A stretch of 64,000 bases of DNA from Armatimonadota bacterium (GTDB lineage Bacteria > Armatimonadota > Fimbriimonadia > Fimbriimonadales > Fimbriimonadaceae), in NCBI GenBank assembly GCA_037138755.1, contig JBAXHT010000001.1, positions 715,805-779,804 on the forward strand, read 5' to 3'. The stretch's first letter is position 1, and each line of letters starts with the position of its first letter. A program made the position numbers and the translations under genes. This document shows, one piece after another, positions 1,444-43,356 of this stretch. The notes under the pieces are model-generated. The model searched no databases and was not told the DNA's origin. It saw only the letters and a list, made by a program, of their open reading frames with translations.

Positions 1444-3981
1444 ATGTTCTCGGCCGCCCTCGCCACCGTCTTGCTAAGCCGCCTCCAAGCCGACGCAAAT
1501 ATGCACATGAACGGACCGTTCAACAGCGGAGTCCCGACTCCCGAATCGGTGCTGGGCTACAAGATCGGATCGCGAATCACGACCTACCGTGAGCAAGAAA
1601 GGGTCTACGACGCCATCGCCGCCAAGGCGGGTGGAAAAGTGCAGCGGATCGACTACGGCACTTCCAACCAAAACTTTCCTTTGAGGGTGTATGCCATCTC
1701 CTCACCCAAAAACATCGCGCGGTGGGAGCAGATTCAGAAGGCAATGGAGAAGGCGGGCAGCACCGGCACTGAGCCGCCGAAGGATACTCCAGCCATTGTC
1801 TGGATCAACCAGACGATCCATGGCAATGAACCTGCCTCGTTCGAGTCGGGCATGGAGTTGTTCTACAACCTGGTCGCAGGCAAAGGCGAATTTGCTAAGT
1901 CCCTCGATAACACCGTCGTCATCCTTAACCCCGTTTACAATCCTGACGGTCACGAGCGATTCGCGGTCGGCTATAACTCCTACGCCCGAGGGAACTACCA
2001 AGACGGCGCGTTCGAGTCATACGAGATCAACCTCCTCTGGGGACGCTATAACCACTACCGGTTCGATATGAACCGAGACCGCATTTCCTTCTCCCAAAAA
2101 GAAACCCAGGCGGAAGTCAAACTCATGCAGTCGATAAGACCCCAAATCTACATTGACCAGCATGGCCAGGTGCAGAATTACTTCTTCCCGCCCAACCCGA
2201 TGGCGATCAACGTCAACGTAGATCGCGCGAGAATCAACAAATGGACCGATATCCTCGGCCGAGCCTGCGCCAAGGCGTTCGACAAAACCGGCTGGAGCTA
2301 CTTCATTAAAGAGGACTTCGACTTCTACGCTCCCTGTTACCTCGATTCCCACGCCGCGCTCAGCGGGGCAATCGGAATTACCCACGAAACCGATGGCGGA
2401 AAAGTTCTGGCGAAGAGCCGCGACGATGGCTCCATCTCGACCCTTCGCGAAGGTGCCGCAAAGCACCTGACCACGGCCCTTGCCGTGATAAAAACCGCTA
2501 GCGAAAAGCGCGACGACCTCATTTCCGACTGGGCAAAATACAAGAAAGCCGCCGTCTCTGCCGAAGGCAGCGAGATGAAGCGGGTCTACGTCACCACGAA
2601 AGATGCCCGGGTTCTGCAACGCCTGCAGGCGCACCTAAAAAGAACCGGAGTCGAGGCAGAGTTTGCGTTCGCCCAACAATCGCCAACCCCTCCGGTAAGG
2701 GCCAAGAGCAAACCCATTCGAATCGAGGGCACCGACTTCTGGACGAACAAGAAAGACAAGTACGAGCTTGATCCTTACACTCTCGTTGTCGACCTTCGCC
2801 AAGAGTTTGGCCCTATCGCCAAATCGCTCTTCGAACGCGTCTCTGATTTTGAAAAAGAGTTCACTGACGCCCAGATGAACAAGAAGAAGACAGCGCCGGA
2901 AGGCGAGCAATACCCAGGACCACAAGGCACCGAGTTCTACGATTTGACCGGGTGGGCCCTGCCGTTCGCGTACGACCTTAAAGCTTATTGGACTGATGGC
3001 TCGGAGAAAGTTTCAACGACCAAGGCGTATCAGTCACTCACACCTCAAGTCCAGGACAACCCTCTCGGCTGGGTGATTGCTTACCGTGACTCAGAGGATG
3101 TCTTAGCGGTTCGAGAACTGCTTGCCGAAGGTGTCAAGGTGTCGGTAGCAACCGCGGATATGAACTTAGGTGACCAGAAAATCGCCAAAGGATCGTTCGT
3201 CATCTTTGCGCTTCGTAATCCCGCAGAAACCGCAAAGCTGATCAATGGAGCCACTTTTTCACGAGGCTCAGAGGTCACCGCCCTCACCACCTCCTACCCC
3301 GAATCCGGGCGAGAAGGTCCAGGAAACCGCCTCGCTGGACTCCGATCTCCGAACATCGGCCTCGTGTTCGGAAATCAGGCGAACATGACGGGCAGCAGCG
3401 GCACCTGGTTCACGTTCGATCAAGAGTTCAAGCTACCGTTCGTTTCCTTGTCCTCGAACGCCCTCGGCACACCCGCTATCCGCGACTACACCGCCATCAT
3501 CGCCCCCTCCGGCTCTGCCGCACTGAGCAACTCCAAAGTTAAGGACTGGGTTCGAGAGGGCGGAGTCCTCGTCGTTTATGGCGAGAACCCTTCGGGAGTT
3601 GCTTCCTTTATTGCAAGCTCCGAAACCCGGGCAATCCCTGGTGCGATCTTCCAGGCCGTTCTTGATAAACGATCTCTTCTCGCAAGCGGCTACGAAGGCG
3701 ACCGAATCGCCGTCCCGGTCGACGGCGACTCGTTCTACAAGGCCCGCAAGGAAGGCGGCGGAGTTGTCAAGTTCGCCGACGATGAGACGTCCAAACACCT
3801 CACCGGTTGGACGTGGGGCGAAGAGTCAGAGAAAGCCATTAAGGGAACAGTCTGGCTCCACGACGAACCACTCGGACGTGGACACATCATCTGGTTCGCC
3901 CAGGACCCTTGCGAGCGCGCGATGTGGCCCGGTCTCCACAAACTGCTGCTCAACTCGCTGATTCTGATGCCAGGGAACTAA
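1444..3981 (+). CDS. Secreted M14-family zinc carboxypeptidase-like protein
   Basis: This is an 845-residue exported protein with a weak N-terminal signal (MFSAALATVLLSRLQADA). The catalytic M14 domain occupies about residues 35-350. Zinc ligands visible are H126 and E129 in IHGNEP and H240 in IDQHGQ, and the catalytic glutamate is probably E315 in ITHETDGG. About 450 C-terminal residues form an additional region, partly Rossmann/GATase1-like (IAPSGSAALSNSKVKDWVREGGVLVVYGE), as in other large bacterial M14 proteins. It likely trims peptides outside the cytoplasm. It is monocistronic, preceded by a -10-like box and followed by a strong terminator. A second copy of its last codons lies at 4526-4555. 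Confidence 0.9.
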   Translation: MFSAALATVLLSRLQADANMHMNGPFNSGVPTPESVLGYKIGSRITTYREQERVYDAIAAKAGGKVQRIDYGTSNQNFPLRVYAISSPKNIARWEQIQKAMEKAGSTGTEPPKDTPAIVWINQTIHGNEPASFESGMELFYNLVAGKGEFAKSLDNTVVILNPVYNPDGHERFAVGYNSYARGNYQDGAFESYEINLLWGRYNHYRFDMNRDRISFSQKETQAEVKLMQSIRPQIYIDQHGQVQNYFFPPNPMAINVNVDRARINKWTDILGRACAKAFDKTGWSYFIKEDFDFYAPCYLDSHAALSGAIGITHETDGGKVLAKSRDDGSISTLREGAAKHLTTALAVIKTASEKRDDLISDWAKYKKAAVSAEGSEMKRVYVTTKDARVLQRLQAHLKRTGVEAEFAFAQQSPTPPVRAKSKPIRIEGTDFWTNKKDKYELDPYTLVVDLRQEFGPIAKSLFERVSDFEKEFTDAQMNKKKTAPEGEQYPGPQGTEFYDLTGWALPFAYDLKAYWTDGSEKVSTTKAYQSLTPQVQDNPLGWVIAYRDSEDVLAVRELLAEGVKVSVATADMNLGDQKIAKGSFVIFALRNPAETAKLINGATFSRGSEVTALTTSYPESGREGPGNRLAGLRSPNIGLVFGNQANMTGSSGTWFTFDQEFKLPFVSLSSNALGTPAIRDYTAIIAPSGSAALSNSKVKDWVREGGVLVVYGENPSGVASFIASSETRAIPGAIFQAVLDKRSLLASGYEGDRIAVPVDGDSFYKARKEGGGVVKFADDETSKHLTGWTWGEESEKAIKGTVWLHDEPLGRGHIIWFAQDPCERAMWPGLHKLLLNSLILMPGN

Positions 3982-4015
3982 TTGTCAGCATCACCTTGGG
4001 GACCCGTGTAAAGAA

Positions 4016-4074: not shown

Positions 4075-4365
4075 TCAGTGACCTTTGCCGGATGGTTTTG
4101 AAGCAGGCTTTGATGCAGGCTTCGAGGTGGACTTGGCTGGGGTTTTCGATGAACTCTTCGTGCTCTTCGCACCGGACTTTGCGCTGGCTTTGCTTGCCGA
4201 CTTGGCGGGCGCTTTGGTCGTGGTCTTCGAAGATGTTTTCGCTGGAGTCTTTGATGTCGACTTGGGTGCCGACTTGGTCGTGGTGGGCTTATGATCCTGG
4301 GCAAAGCCGACGGCGCACACCGAGACAAGAGACAAGATGGCCAGGAGCTGAGTGAGGTGTTTCAT
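4075..4365 (-). CDS. Exported Lys/Ser/Thr/Ala-rich low-complexity protein
   Basis: About 96 residues. The chosen start, MKHLTQLLAILSL, gives a clean signal peptide with cleavage near AVGFAQ. The mature part is a degenerate repeat of short units such as KSTSKTPAKT and KPASKPSGK, with no hydrophobic core, so it is predicted disordered and highly basic. A similar composition is seen in cell-wall- or polyanion-binding tails, but no family is recognised. It sits alone between the terminator and a displaced fragment of the M14 gene, so it may be cargo of an insertion. The longer reading frame beginning 8 codons earlier would spoil the signal peptide. Confidence 0.6.
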   Translation of the reverse strand: MKHLTQLLAILSLVSVCAVGFAQDHKPTTTKSAPKSTSKTPAKTSSKTTTKAPAKSASKASAKSGAKSTKSSSKTPAKSTSKPASKPASKPSGKGH

Positions 4366-4495: not shown

Positions 4496-4555
4496 ATGCC
4501 CGCCGGTTGTCTTCCCTTCTTTCTTAACTTGCTGATTCTGACGCCAGGGAACTGA
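4496..4555 (+). pseudogene. Displaced 3'-end fragment of an M14-peptidase-type gene
   Basis: Bases 4526-4553 match bases 3952-3979, the last codons of the M14 gene, at 26 of 28 positions. In frame they encode NLLILTPGN then stop, against NSLILMPGN then stop. Similarity fades upstream of about 4510. An ATG happens to open this frame at 4496, giving a 19-residue peptide that I do not consider a gene. The fragment ends 5 bases from the stop of the convergent zinc-protease gene, as an intact M14 gene would have done before the intervening ~570 bases arrived. Confidence 0.6.
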
Positions 4556-4560
4556 TAGAA

Positions 4561-5436
4561 CTATCGAGGATCATAACCTGACTCTTTGACGAGCCAAGCT
4601 GGGTCCCTGCACTCGATGATCTGCTTCACCGCCGCATGCTTGTCGGCAGCTTTGTTGTAATACGCCTGCGCGATTCGGGCACCAATAAAATAGCCGAGGT
4701 CGCCCGGTCGAGGCTCTTTTTGTCCGAACGTGGATATCCAGTCGAGCACACGGTTCTTTCCGGCGACTTCCGCCTTCCACTCCTTCCAAAGCTCAGCTTC
4801 GTGAGCCAACCCGTACTTCCACTGTTCGGTGTTAATCAGTCCTCCGCTCGCCAAGTAGCCGATCCAGTCGGCACTTCCTTCGCGAATCGTAGCCGCGAGG
4901 AGTCCGTTTCCACCACCTTTAGGTTGCAGAAAGTGGATGAGCTCATGGGCAACGATATACGGCATTTTGTCGGGCTCGTTGATGGACATCTCAACTCCGA
5001 GCATGAGGCCCGCCGAACTCGCCGTGCCTCCGCTCGTATGTCTGCCGATCACGCAGTAAACCGGTGGAAACGTTGCTTCGGGATACAAGTGCTTCATTGC
5101 GTAGAACGCTGACTTGATTCTTGGAAGAGCCTCCTTGACTTTCAACGTCCGCTCTCGCAAAAACATGTAGTCAACCTTCCGACTCCGGATGTGATCGGCA
5201 AGTCGGTCGGCACCTTGAATCTTGGTGAGGTTGAAGAATGCCAGTCCATGGGAACCACCATTCAGATACTTTTCCTTGAGATTTTTGGCGAGGTCTTCTG
5301 AACTCGAGTTGTCGAACACCGTCCAAAAACGGTCTATGTCGGATGTGATGAACTGGAACTGATCGGGATCGGAAGGAAACGAAGGCGGCGTCTGCTGCGC
5401 AGCAATCGCAAGAATGGCAATTCCGGACGAGATCAT
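4561..5436 (-). CDS. Exported zinc-dependent protease, DUF2268-like gluzincin fold
   Basis: From ATG at 5436 the protein is about 291 residues with a short hydrophobic N-terminus (MISSGIAILAIAAQQ) that reads as a signal peptide. The active-site motif HELIHFLQP gives HExxH, and IREGSADWIGYL about 25 residues later supplies the likely third zinc ligand (E), an arrangement seen in DUF2268-type predicted proteases. The frame could be extended two codons to a TTG, but the ATG is preferred. Substrate is unknown. The gene is convergent with the M14 region and divergent from the GH57 gene. Confidence 0.75.
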   Translation of the reverse strand: MISSGIAILAIAAQQTPPSFPSDPDQFQFITSDIDRFWTVFDNSSSEDLAKNLKEKYLNGGSHGLAFFNLTKIQGADRLADHIRSRKVDYMFLRERTLKVKEALPRIKSAFYAMKHLYPEATFPPVYCVIGRHTSGGTASSAGLMLGVEMSINEPDKMPYIVAHELIHFLQPKGGGNGLLAATIREGSADWIGYLASGGLINTEQWKYGLAHEAELWKEWKAEVAGKNRVLDWISTFGQKEPRPGDLGYFIGARIAQAYYNKAADKHAAVKQIIECRDPAWLVKESGYDPR

Positions 5437-5502
5437 TCTCAATGATTACCTAGAATCGAAGACTTCAAGTTTCAATTTGAGTGATTGATAGGCTCTACGG
5501 CG

Positions 5503-39067: not shown

Positions 39068-39424
39068 GTGGTTGTTGGAGTCGGGATCGATCTGGTGGAC
39101 ATTTCGCGGATTGCCCACGCGATGCGTAACCCGCGGTTTGTGCCCAAAATCCTGACGGAAAGGGAAGAGGCGTATTGCAAAAACGCCCAACAGGTCGCCG
39201 GGCGTTGGGCGGCGAAGGAAGCGGTTATCAAGGCGGTAGGGATCCCCCTGCTGATGCGGGACATTGAGATTCTAAATGACCCGCTGGGGCAGCCACATGT
39301 GGTCATTCGGGATTTGCGTTTTGACTCGGCGCGCTTGCGAATTTATGTTTCACTGACCCACGAAAAGACCCACGCGGCGGGCGTCGCGGTGGTCGAGCGG
39401 ATCGTTCTTCAGGTTCCGTTTTAG
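39068..39424 (+). CDS. acpS: Holo-[acyl-carrier-protein] synthase
   Basis: 118 residues from GTG. The AcpS motifs VGVGIDLVDISRI and AGRWAAKEAVIKAVG are intact, with the metal-binding aspartate and glutamate, and VSLTHEKTHAAGVAVVE at the end. It transfers phosphopantetheine from CoA to ACP. It overlaps the convergent unknown gene by 4 bases. The last ~32 bases recur in diverged form at 41204-41235. CoA biosynthesis genes panB and panC lie 7 kb upstream. Confidence 0.93.
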   Translation: MVVGVGIDLVDISRIAHAMRNPRFVPKILTEREEAYCKNAQQVAGRWAAKEAVIKAVGIPLLMRDIEILNDPLGQPHVVIRDLRFDSARLRIYVSLTHEKTHAAGVAVVERIVLQVPF

Positions 39425-40401
39425 AGGGTGTAATACCGTCCCGGCGAAGTCTCGACCTCGACCGAAACGTTAAGCAGACTATAAACTGCAATCCTAACAC
39501 TTAAACGATTCTTGAAACGGTCTCGTAGTTCTGGCGCAAGCCGTTTTGAGGATTGATCCATCACCGTAAGAACATCTTTGTACAGCGGATGACGTTGATC
39601 AATATCCTCGGTATATTTCTCTTTCTCCTTACAGGCCCTTTCCATATCAGCAATCGACATTCGATTGAGAACTTTGAACTTTAGGGCCATGCGAGCCGAA
39701 AAGTAGTCAACGGCGTCGTCTATCCCGTAGAATGCTCTGCTGCGAACGAGATTTTCTCGCAACTTTGTAGCGTCAACCTCGAATCGGTACTCGTCATCCA
39801 ACTCGGTAAATTTTAGACCTCCGGACAAGGCAACCGCGCGCAGCAATGCAACCTCATTAACGCTACCGACTGATACGAAGTATTCGTGGCTCTCGACAAA
39901 GAATGGGAAGGTGATTTTCTTCGTAAATCCAAATTTTTCTAAGTCTCTGAGCCTGAACTTACCCGTCAAATTGAGAGTTTTCATTCCAGGAAGTCGGCTG
40001 TAACTTGTTGTCAGCTGCTCCCCTAGCGGGATAATCATGATCGTTCCGAGGTAGTCGTGGTACCCAAGAATCTTCGGAACAAAGACGTCGATCCCTTTAT
40101 TTGGCAGCGGAACCGTGCCTGGCGAAGGAGTTTGAGAGCCGGAAGTCACCGCGTCGTTGTAGAGCTCCCAAAGTGGATTGGAGATTCCTCCAAACTTACC
40201 CTCTTTGTCCAACAATGGGGTTGGCCCCACTCCCGTGATGACGTCAATCTGCGCAACGTAACCTCCTCGCTCCGACCGCTCCGCGCGGTACTTCAGAAAT
40301 TCAGGAACAGTACCGCCACCGAAAGGAAGCCTCTTTGTGAAGTGAAGAGTCTGTGAGGGAGACGCTTGAAAGGCGAGGACTAGGAATGGAACCAACAACA
40401 T
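39421..40401 (-). CDS. Exported hypothetical protein
   Basis: 326 residues with an N-terminal signal (MLLVPFLVLAFQASPSQ). No family recognised. It is rich in Asp, Lys and Tyr, with an N-terminal part GGTVPEFLKYRAERSERGG and a C-terminal helical region (RMSIADMERACKEKEKYTED, SSKRLAPELRDRFKNRLSV). By eye its base composition is more AT-rich than neighbouring genes. It lies, with the next gene, between acpS and the displaced acpS tail, so it may be acquired cargo. The next gene upstream ends one base away. Confidence 0.5.
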   Translation of the reverse strand: MLLVPFLVLAFQASPSQTLHFTKRLPFGGGTVPEFLKYRAERSERGGYVAQIDVITGVGPTPLLDKEGKFGGISNPLWELYNDAVTSGSQTPSPGTVPLPNKGIDVFVPKILGYHDYLGTIMIIPLGEQLTTSYSRLPGMKTLNLTGKFRLRDLEKFGFTKKITFPFFVESHEYFVSVGSVNEVALLRAVALSGGLKFTELDDEYRFEVDATKLRENLVRSRAFYGIDDAVDYFSARMALKFKVLNRMSIADMERACKEKEKYTEDIDQRHPLYKDVLTVMDQSSKRLAPELRDRFKNRLSVRIAVYSLLNVSVEVETSPGRYYTL

Positions 40402-40402
40402 T

Positions 40403-40906
40403 TTAGTTGTGCACCACCGTTACTACCAGCGTTTTTTCCTGCGTCGTGTCTTTTATGGGGTCCAGAACTGCATCGGTTGCTAGGTACTCCACATCAAAGC
40501 CTGACCCTGAGTACGAAGATGGGACGAAGATGTCTACCCATCCGTACCCATAGTTTGCCGAGTTAAACGAGAGGCCCGTGTTAACCGTTGCAGTTACCCC
40601 TGAGATGTTTGTGCCGACCACAAAGACGTTGTTCACATCAAGGTGGTTACACTGGTCTGCTTGGAGGTAAAAGTACGGGGCTGAACTTTGCTGATACAAG
40701 AAAGTATCAAGGTCGCTCGAAGTCACAAGGAAATTGCCAGTGGCACTCTGCCCCGATGCCTTTGTGATTGTCAATGTCGTCGGAGCGGAAACAGTCCATG
40801 CGGGTGCCTTATCGTACGGTGCGGGCAGAGCTTGCCGTTGTGAAAACGCGGCGGCAGCGAGGATGACGGTAAGTCCAAGAACGGCGATTCGGGTTAGATT
40901 TTTCAT
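40403..40906 (-). CDS. Small exported beta-rich hypothetical protein
   Basis: 167 residues from ATG 40906, preceded by GGAG; earlier in-frame ATGs are less well placed. Signal peptide MKNLTRIAVLGLTVILAAAAFSQ, then a Thr/Ser/Tyr/Asn-rich beta sandwich (PTTLTITKASGQSATGNFLVTSSDLDTFLYQQ, VDIFVPSSYSGSGFDVEYLATDAV). No family recognised; it has the look of a secreted adhesin or matrix domain. It runs into the 39421 gene on the same strand and belongs to the putative inserted segment. Confidence 0.5.
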   Translation of the reverse strand: MKNLTRIAVLGLTVILAAAAFSQRQALPAPYDKAPAWTVSAPTTLTITKASGQSATGNFLVTSSDLDTFLYQQSSAPYFYLQADQCNHLDVNNVFVVGTNISGVTATVNTGLSFNSANYGYGWVDIFVPSSYSGSGFDVEYLATDAVLDPIKDTTQEKTLVVTVVHN

Positions 40907-41170
40907 CATTTTCTCCATGACCCAGATCGTTGTGACCCAGTGTAGGAAACTATTCTCAAATTTCAACAACTTTTGCAGAAACTTAACAAATATTCTTTTC
41001 TATGGTAAAAGAACCATGTAGGAATACTAGGGGAAGCGACACCAGGAAGCGCCATTCGGAGACCGATTACCTAGTCTTTTCTAACGACAGGGAGGTCTTT
41101 TTCCCGTTTAGCTCGTCTTTCGGGGCCGGATCCACCGGCGGCACAATCAGCCGAGGAGGTGCCCGTATCG
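40907..41170. other. Intergenic region, no convincing gene
   Basis: This stretch and the pseudogene fragment behind it hold 330 bases with no supported gene. The part next to the 40403 gene is AT-rich and presumably carries its promoter on the minus strand, with no clear -35/-10 pair. A 96-codon plus-strand frame at 41002 has unlikely composition and runs through the acpS-tail fragment in another frame, so I do not call it. Confidence 0.5.
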
Positions 41171-41236
41171 TCGCTCCCCTCTCGAGCGGCACCGTACGCG
41201 AGTGTCGAGCGGATTATGTTGCAGGTTCCGTTTTAA
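41171..41236 (+). pseudogene. Displaced 3'-end fragment of an acpS homologue
   Basis: In frame this encodes SLPSRAAPYASVERIMLQVPF and a stop, against SLTHEKTHAAGVAVVERIVLQVPF for the intact acpS. Bases 41204-41235 match 39392-39423 at 27 of 32 positions, and of the last ten residues nine are identical. Three of the five mismatches are silent or conservative codon changes, so this was once coding sequence of a diverged acpS. Its stop is directly followed by the stop of the convergent ABC-2 permease gene. Confidence 0.6.
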
Positions 41237-42412
41237 CTACTCGGCGTCCCAACGAAATCTTGTCAATCCAATCGCGGCAAAGCCCAAAGTGAATAGCAAG
41301 AGCACGCCAAAGAATGGGAGTACCGCGGACAGCTCTTGACCCCGCCATGTCATTGCATCCATCCCATCAACCGCCCATCGCACCGGGATGCACTTGGAAA
41401 TGCTTTGAACCCAATCTGGGAACATGGAAGCAGGAAACCAAGCTCCTCCGAGCATCGTCATCACGAGCACGACTAGAGTGGATAAGCCTCGGCTCTGAGC
41501 TTCGGTCCTCCCAAGGGCCGAAACGAAGAGGCCGAACGAGGCGGTCATCAACGCTGAACCAAATAGCATAACCGCAAGTCCGATCACGCTACCCGTGATC
41601 TTGAAATGGAATATCATGATTCCACCGATCAACACCACGCAAAGTACAAACAGGGCCTTGATGGTTGAGCTAAAGATTCTGCCCAACAGGAACCAGCGTG
41701 GGGATATTGGAGCCGCAGTCAAGCGTTTGAGGAGCCCCTTTTGGCGGTCCCGCATCAGGAGCATCGCGGATTCAATCGCACCAAATAGAATCCCCTGGAT
41801 TGCCATACCGCCGAAAACGTGCGCAATTGTGGCGTTCCGGTCATCTGTGGCATCTTGCTTCTTTTCCTCAGAAAGGTCGTCAGTCTTAGTCGTATAAGGA
41901 CTGTTCTCCTTTTGATCCATGGCGAACGCCTTTCCGTATTTGTTCTCGACGATCACCCCCATGATCCCGCCCATCAGTTCGCCCTTGGCGATGCCAGATT
42001 CAAGGTTTTTTGTGGGATCGGCGATGAACTTCAGTTCTGGCTTTTCTGCTGTGCTGTTTCCAAAAGCATTGGCGGCACCCGCGACGAAGCCAGACGGAAT
42101 GATAACAGCAAGCGGTGCCTTGCCCGCCTTAACTTGATCCTTCGCTTCCTGTTCGGAAACCTCTTTGATCGTCAGGCTTTCGGCTTTGCTCCATCGATTC
42201 AGAAGGGGCGCAACTTCGGCCCTGTTCTTCGCCGCTACAAGCACTGTAATCTTCGTGCCTGGCTTTCCGCCGGAGGCTGCTTGTGAACCGAAGATCACCG
42301 CCATGAAACATGCGATTCCCAGCGGAACCAAGAGGCTGATCAGGACCGCCCGACGATCCATGAAGTATTGCAGGAGGTCTTTTCGAACAACCGCGAGAAT
42401 GACTTTGAACAT
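41237..42412 (-). CDS. ABC-2 type transporter permease
   Basis: 391 residues. N-terminal membrane helix (VLISLLVPLGIACFMAVIFG), a large extracytoplasmic domain (residues ~45-175, with AVIIPSGFVAGAANAFGNST), then a cluster of five or six helices carrying DRQKGLLKRLTAAPISPRWFLLGRI, the ABC-2 signature loop. It pairs with the ATPase gene immediately upstream, whose stop overlaps the start here. The module probably exports a lipid, drug or polysaccharide; sequence does not say which. Confidence 0.88.
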   Translation of the reverse strand: MFKVILAVVRKDLLQYFMDRRAVLISLLVPLGIACFMAVIFGSQAASGGKPGTKITVLVAAKNRAEVAPLLNRWSKAESLTIKEVSEQEAKDQVKAGKAPLAVIIPSGFVAGAANAFGNSTAEKPELKFIADPTKNLESGIAKGELMGGIMGVIVENKYGKAFAMDQKENSPYTTKTDDLSEEKKQDATDDRNATIAHVFGGMAIQGILFGAIESAMLLMRDRQKGLLKRLTAAPISPRWFLLGRIFSSTIKALFVLCVVLIGGIMIFHFKITGSVIGLAVMLFGSALMTASFGLFVSALGRTEAQSRGLSTLVVLVMTMLGGAWFPASMFPDWVQSISKCIPVRWAVDGMDAMTWRGQELSAVLPFFGVLLLFTLGFAAIGLTRFRWDAE

Positions 42413-43329
42413 TAGTCCCTCAGCCCCTTTCCAGTCAGATGGAGGAAAACATCCTCAAGTGATGATTCATCGCTCCGAATCGCTTTGAGACTTGCCTTTC
42501 CGGATAACTGCGAGGTGATCCACGCGACATCGTTCTCGAGGTTTGTGACTTGCACAGTGACGACAGACTCCTCAACCTTTAAGTTTGGATACTTGAGCAT
42601 CAGAGATGCCATGAGATCTCCCGGTGGAGGCTCGGCAAACGTGAGGGCGAGCAGATTGAGGTCGGGCAACAGATTCGAGATTTCAGCTTTGGTTCCGCCC
42701 GCGATGAGCTTGCCCCCATCCATAATCGCTATCCGAGAGCACAGCCTTTCCACCTCTTCCATGTAGTGGGACGTGTAGAGGATGGTCATGCCGTCCCGGT
42801 TGAGAACTTCCAAAGTATCGAAGATTTGATTTCGGCTCTGGGGGTCAACTCCGACGGTAGGTTCATCGAGTACGAGCAACTTCGGCTCGTGCAACAAGGC
42901 GACAGCGATATTGAGGCGTCGCTTCATTCCTCCCGAAAAGTGCTCAACTCGTTCGGTTGCCCGGTCTTCTAATCCAACCTGTCTCAGAACCTTGGAGCAC
43001 CGCTCCGAGACGTTACTTAGTCCGTAAAGGCTTCCAAAGAACTGTAGATTGGCATTGGCCGATAAGTCTTCGTACAAGGCGATTTCTTGGGGGACGAAAC
43101 CTATTTTGGACTTCTGGCTAAAGGCGACGGGGCTCATTACTTCGCCCTCCAGTTGGAGCTCACCGGAGTCGGCGGCGAGGGTACCTACAATCATGGAGAT
43201 CGTCGTGGTTTTTCCCGCACCGTTCGGTCCCAGTAGACCAAAGAACTCTCCTCGTTGCACTTCGAATGACACGTCGCTCACTGCTTTGCGAGCACCAAAT
43301 GACTTCGACACCGAATTCAGACTTAGCAT
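42412..43329 (-). CDS. ABC transporter ATP-binding protein
   Basis: About 305 residues from [17 protein letters not shown] (start 43329; a start three codons earlier is possible). Walker A is [11 protein letters not shown]-loop [11 protein letters not shown], signature [10 protein letters not shown], Walker [14 protein letters not shown]-loop YTSHYMEE. The C-terminal ~85 residues ([37 protein letters not shown]) resemble the accessory domain of ABC-2 (CcmA/DrrA type) ATPases. It energises the permease encoded right downstream; the two genes overlap by one base. Confidence 0.9.
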
Positions 43330-43356
43330 TCGACACAAGGATACGCTTGTTGCGCC

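Follow-up and report, generated by a model that had tools for sequence, protein, structure and literature searches.

In the window, by which we mean the whole stretch of 64,000 nucleotides analyzed here, the 3' end of acpS occurs a second time as a short displaced stump, and two genes lie between the intact acpS and this stump. The scar is real, recurrent and well polarised, and it belongs to recombination of a known kind. On balance, we favour the reading that the stump is the scar of a gene acquisition, in which donor DNA was imported by homology on one side and joined illegitimately at its far end. The window genome (G000, 3.27 Mb), from a freshwater bacterium, falls among the Fimbriimonas metagenome-assembled genomes of the phylum Armatimonadota. 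Judged by acpS, it is closest to G016 (JARXAE01, Fimbriimonas sp. D15.bin.35) and G001 (CAIYMO01, Loclat_bin-02583), with acpS identities of 93% and 89%, respectively.

Table 1. Features discussed in the text. Positions are those of the window unless a contig is given.
Feature	Position	Strand	Basis or remark
Host gene of the second case, 845 aa ('M14')	1444..3981	+	ORF
3' end of the 845-aa gene, reference copy	3949..3982	+	repeat comparison
Cargo of the second case, 96-aa exported Lys/Ala/Ser-rich protein	4075..4365	-	ORF
Displaced 3' stump of the 845-aa gene	4523..4556	+	30/34 identical
acpS, holo-ACP synthase, 118 aa, intact	39068..39424	+	Pfam ACPS PF01648, E 1.1e-14
3' end of intact acpS, reference copy of the repeat	39385..39424	+	repeat comparison
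Cargo gene 1, 326 aa, hydrophobic N-terminus, no family	39421..40401	-	family searches
Cargo gene 2, 168 aa, exported-type N-terminus	40403..40909	-	upstream of cargo gene 1, same orientation
Non-coding cargo, cargo gene 2 to stump	40910..41196	.	sequence inspection
Displaced acpS 3' stump (VERIMLQVPF + stop)	41197..41236	+	31/39 to the intact copy
ABC-2 type permease, old acpS neighbour	41237..42412	-	abuts acpS in G001; absent here in G016
ABC ATPase, partner of the permease	42412..43323	-	missing at the same place in G016
Region between E1-alpha head stump and intact gene	window -26620 to -24600, G000:C1:~689190-691200
tRNA-Gln(ttg) with displaced 3' copy 4.4 kb downstream	G000:C1:488275-488348		66 bp, 82% identical

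The displaced acpS end and the ancestral gene order

The direct repeat at 39385-39423 and 41197-41235 has a spacing of 1812. Over the last 33 bases of acpS (39392-39424 against 41204-41236), 27 of 33 positions match, stop codon included, and the next best places for this 33-mer in 1.2 Mb of G000 reached 22/33 on the + strand and 23/33 on the - strand. The repeat pattern had two matches in the window and zero expected in shuffles; the acpS tail repeat is not due to chance. The preliminary description had reported that the tail recurs 1.8 kb away, which was confirmed, and that 27 of 32 bases match, which is correct with the last position left out. It placed VERIMLQVPF and the stop at 41207-41236; the sequence is present, but its true start is 41204, one codon earlier. 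The homology extends leftward to about 41197 only, not to 41171. The stop of the stump (TAA, 41234-41236) touches that of the permease (CTA, 41237-41239) with no gap, and the stop of intact acpS (39422-39424) overlaps that of the 326-aa gene (39421-39423); the preliminary description had both pairs as abutting. An assembly artefact is unlikely to lie behind the stump because the copies differ and similar scars are present in three assemblies.

In G001 (Fimbriimonas), the acpS stop (TAG) stands directly against the permease stop (CTA), and the site is empty. The 26 bases past the stump stop match G001 at 20/26. The 26 bases past the intact acpS stop match the stump flank at 4/26 and are unrelated to it, leaving one side of the junction without homology. 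Since the stump–permease junction has the geometry of G001 and intact acpS runs into unrelated sequence, acpS next to the permease is, judged from these alignments, the ancestral order, and the two-gene cargo of about 1.77 kb is a derived insertion. On either side of the insert stands one copy of a long direct repeat whose target occurs once in G001, and nothing between acpS and the permease is missing in the window relative to G001. This empty site supports the earlier proposal that extra genes were inserted and the gene end displaced while acpS stayed intact. The segment 41171-41236 was not found conserved in relatives within another gene, and the junction of acpS with the gene at 39421 is not ancestral throughout the clade, G001 having acpS against the permease.

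G016 has neither the permease nor the ATPase, and its acpS meets a 147-aa gene. The absence of this pair (window 41237-43338) is a clean loss or replacement from gene edge to gene edge. Each of the three species (G000, G001 and G016) has its own content between acpS and the 147-aa gene; whole genes vary, and mobility genes are absent. The minimal mobile elements of Neisseria likewise have conserved flanking genes, interchangeable cargo and no mobility gene; their definition does not include stumps.

The cargo and the divergence of the stump

The 326-aa protein has weak relatives (24-31% identity) in G010, G003 and G073 and no close relative in the 85 genomes of the family, and the 168-aa protein had zero matches in the 84 other genomes. 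Neither matched a family in Pfam, NCBIfam or PHROGs, PDB sequences gave nothing useful, and a single-sequence fold of the 326-aa protein was unusable (pLDDT 34.6). Family searches revealed no recombinase, integrase or transposase in the acpS cargo, and restriction-modification genes are not among its two genes, which have no family match. No integrase, IS or significant fold was found in the non-coding cargo (the DNA fold was unremarkable); a sigma-70-like promoter match lies there at 40966-40939 on the - strand. The preliminary description had suggested setting the cargo against the genome, and in the GC part of this comparison the cargo genes were lower, at 0.490 and 0.513 versus 0.546 (1-kb sd 0.021). 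A donor genome with the order acpS, 326-aa gene, 168-aa gene was not found among the family genomes searched.

Every altered codon of the acpS stump but one is silent (P 0.005-0.008 under free decay), and these mostly silent changes give a hint of allelic divergence. The M14-type stump looks freely decayed. Third codon positions account for 32/58 differences pooled over six protein-gene stumps, positions at which the intact gene also evolves. Changes private to the stump were found at 4/33 sites for both acpS and the M14-type gene, and in E1-alpha there were 13 on the stump versus 4 in the intact copy. At the acpS sites where the copies differ, the intact copy mostly agrees with G016 and G001; two states are common to the stump and intact acpS and absent from both relatives. 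The intact 3' part groups with G016, as vertical descent predicts, and a visible import at this end was unsupported by the site patterns along acpS. By these patterns, both acpS copies are best placed in the lineage of G000, and the stump is, at least in part, a decaying copy. The earlier view of a different acpS allele rather than a fresh duplication is not demonstrated, the changes being mostly private to the stump, as in an old decaying copy. Since the intact 3' part groups with G016, any donor must lie within the species' own lineage; a distant donor is unsupported, given the states shared by stump and intact copy and the kinship of the intact end with G016.

The decay-like changes of the stump and the near-orphan nature of the cargo genes would also suit a local partial duplication of acpS by template switching, with the cargo captured or born between the copies later and no transfer at all. 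We regard this as very improbable, as several loci have cargo of low GC that the relatives do not share, and the edges of the duplications match gene edges every time.

Recurrence of gene-end stumps

The same layout had been pointed out at the 'M14' locus of the window, and it is real: 3949-3982 and 4523-4556 agree at 30/34 positions. In the relatives G016 and G001, what follows the 845-aa gene is a different gene, so this place has changed more than once. Behind this gene, window 4561-5442 encodes a 293-aa exported protein that is absent from the searched stretches of the relatives; its counterpart in G016 and G001 is a different gene, fucosidase-like by eye.

Scans of G000 covered 1.2 of its 3.27 Mb. 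In an indel survey, 400 kb of G000 were aligned with G016, and a self-scan for stumps was applied to 1.2 Mb of G000, 367 kb of G016 and 235 kb of G001 (1.8 Mb, three genomes). The survey gave about 48 gene-scale indels, four of them with a stump; permuted flank controls were lower. These stumps belong to acpS, the 845-aa gene, a dehydrogenase E1-alpha gene and, as a 5' head of 58 bp, a gene in G016. The E1-alpha stump, likewise a 5' head (about 166 bp, 80%), came to light when the sequence at its indel was compared with itself; it adjoins the native upstream flank without a break, the arrangement also seen in G001. The stretch separating it from the intact gene holds a prepilin-like gene and a membrane-protein unit duplicated in tandem (570 bp, 67%). 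The self-scan added the 3' ends of a tRNA-Gln gene in G000, an esterase gene in G016 and an acetyltransferase-like gene in G001, the latter two at broken synteny and less clean. The total is at least seven stumps in 1.8 Mb of three independently assembled genomes, and this count is a lower bound because the acpS stump itself fell below the self-scan threshold.

The scan for displaced gene ends bears out the recurring process that the preliminary description had supposed from two cases, and removes two of its restrictions. The process is not limited to convergent gene ends, since two stumps are 5' heads and one is a tRNA tail. Nor is exported cargo the rule: by a crude N-terminal score, a hydrophobic N-terminus was found in 15/47 ORFs in insertions versus 29% of all ORFs.

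The tRNA-Gln 3' end is a classic target of site-specific integration, and an intact gene with a displaced end is its classic outcome. Gene ends might then serve as att sites, with the integrase acting in trans. The tRNA-Gln repeat, however, flanks a two-gene cargo without an integrase, as at acpS, and the repeats are 79-92% identical (79% at acpS, where an integrase-driven island should have near-identical att sites). They are unrelated in sequence, differ in length, occur at 5' and 3' ends and tend to have no common core. This explanation is the least probable of those considered, and we give it hardly any weight.

Several further repeats were rejected as stumps. A fifth candidate at window +193 to +197 kb consists of tandem paralogous genes with a common N-terminus, a repeat near window +323 kb is a tandem gene pair also present in G016, and the terminator-like sequences at window +220 kb and +669 kb are repeats of intergenic DNA. 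At G000:C1:~333387-344028, a 1253-aa ORF has several displaced copies of its 3' region behind it, together with copies of the start of the next gene (390 bp, 93%); the arrangement resembles a polymorphic-toxin/Rhs-type array of orphan modules. Intergenic repeats of a dispersed family (50-110 bp, at least 4 copies in 10 kb) were found at G000:C1:~444817-454173.

A probable route of gene acquisition at gene edges

In 7/7 stumps, the duplicated part lies inside one gene, with a length of 33 to about 166 bp. The duplications end 0-24 bp from the gene edge on the cargo side and none enters the neighbour (7/7 one-sided, sign test 1/128). If staggered duplications fell at random around a junction, many of them should straddle it. 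Because the duplications are bounded at gene edges, a homologous anchor shared by donor and recipient is likely; edge-bound, one-sided duplications are expected where donor and recipient share the gene and not its neighbour. In the mechanism we propose, the donor would be a related cell in which acpS is followed by the two cargo genes, and its DNA was probably taken up by transformation. It would pair with the recipient through acpS and cross over by homology either within the gene or upstream of it; its far end would attach, with no real homology, within the last ~36 bp of the recipient acpS. This would leave acpS intact with the donor's end, the permease intact and the recipient's old acpS end stranded as the stump. 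The same scar would have formed at other genes as separate events, at 5' as well as 3' ends. All 20 genomes of the genus encode ComEC and DprA, which permits, and does not prove, transformation.

Import of this type corresponds to homology-facilitated illegitimate recombination (HFIR), whose usual marks are a micro-homology of 3-10 bp at the illegitimate join and a recipient deletion of similar size. Such a deletion was not evident here; had one occurred, it would fall within the part of acpS that the donor restored. HFIR of transforming DNA has been described in S. pneumoniae, A. baylyi and P. stutzeri (PMC3240628, PMC2884548). As in those cases, one side would be homologous (the shared gene), the other is not, and about 1-2 kb of foreign DNA is gained; unlike them, our case is read from natural genomes, and no loss of unique recipient DNA was seen. 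In Vibrio cholerae, displaced 3' ends of effector genes were explained by the authors in a similar, HFIR-style manner (PMC5361080). In this T6SS effector-immunity displacement, as with Rhs orphan 3' ends, a module replaces the gene end and the old 3' end is pushed downstream (PMC5361080), but toxin and immunity genes are involved there, whereas here housekeeping genes are hit, the neighbours change and the stump has no evident use.

The strongest rival is a single, Campbell-type crossover of a circularised donor fragment carrying a piece of the acpS end and the cargo, which would place the target end on both sides of the cargo and give the same structure. In an E. coli HFIR test, partial duplications of this kind, 109-950 bp long, made up most of the products (PMC3240628), and stumps of 104-166 bp would suit this route. 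At acpS and the M14-type gene, however, the homology is only 33-39 bp, at or below the usual pairing length of RecA, and a free circle would be required for each event. We therefore consider it unlikely.

Restriction-modification cargo is frequently, not strictly, associated with insertions that carry a long target duplication. Such an insertion, made by a staggered break with end joining or by some transposase, would set the cargo at a gene edge with the target copied and leave the same end structure. It has been described in Helicobacter pylori, where, according to the passage on it in PMC1643837 (citing Nobusato 2000), cargo lies between long direct target repeats. The cargo there is of the restriction-modification type, whereas here it encodes uncharacterised exported proteins and the repeats end at the edges of genes. 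G000, G016 and G001 have no Ku, which speaks against classical end joining; the cargo has no transposase, the duplicated lengths vary, and not one of the seven duplications straddles a junction. These points make a long target-site duplication rather improbable, below the single crossover.

Returning to the one-sided import that we favour, the scar is probably a mark of the way in which these bacteria acquire genes. No report of such scars in the phylum was found in the literature searched. That Fimbriimonas gains its genes mainly by an integrase-free route landing at core-gene edges is a bolder claim, and we hold it to be improbable. If it were true, gene-end stumps could be read genome-wide as dated scars of gene gain. 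The entry of small integrase-free cargo into bacterial genomes has so far been mostly inferred, and stumps preserve the side on which the cargo landed, the former neighbour and, in their state of decay, a rough age of the event. Their frequency in these three genomes suggests a route so common that it can be counted and tested through comparisons of gene order, in a phylum that has received little study.
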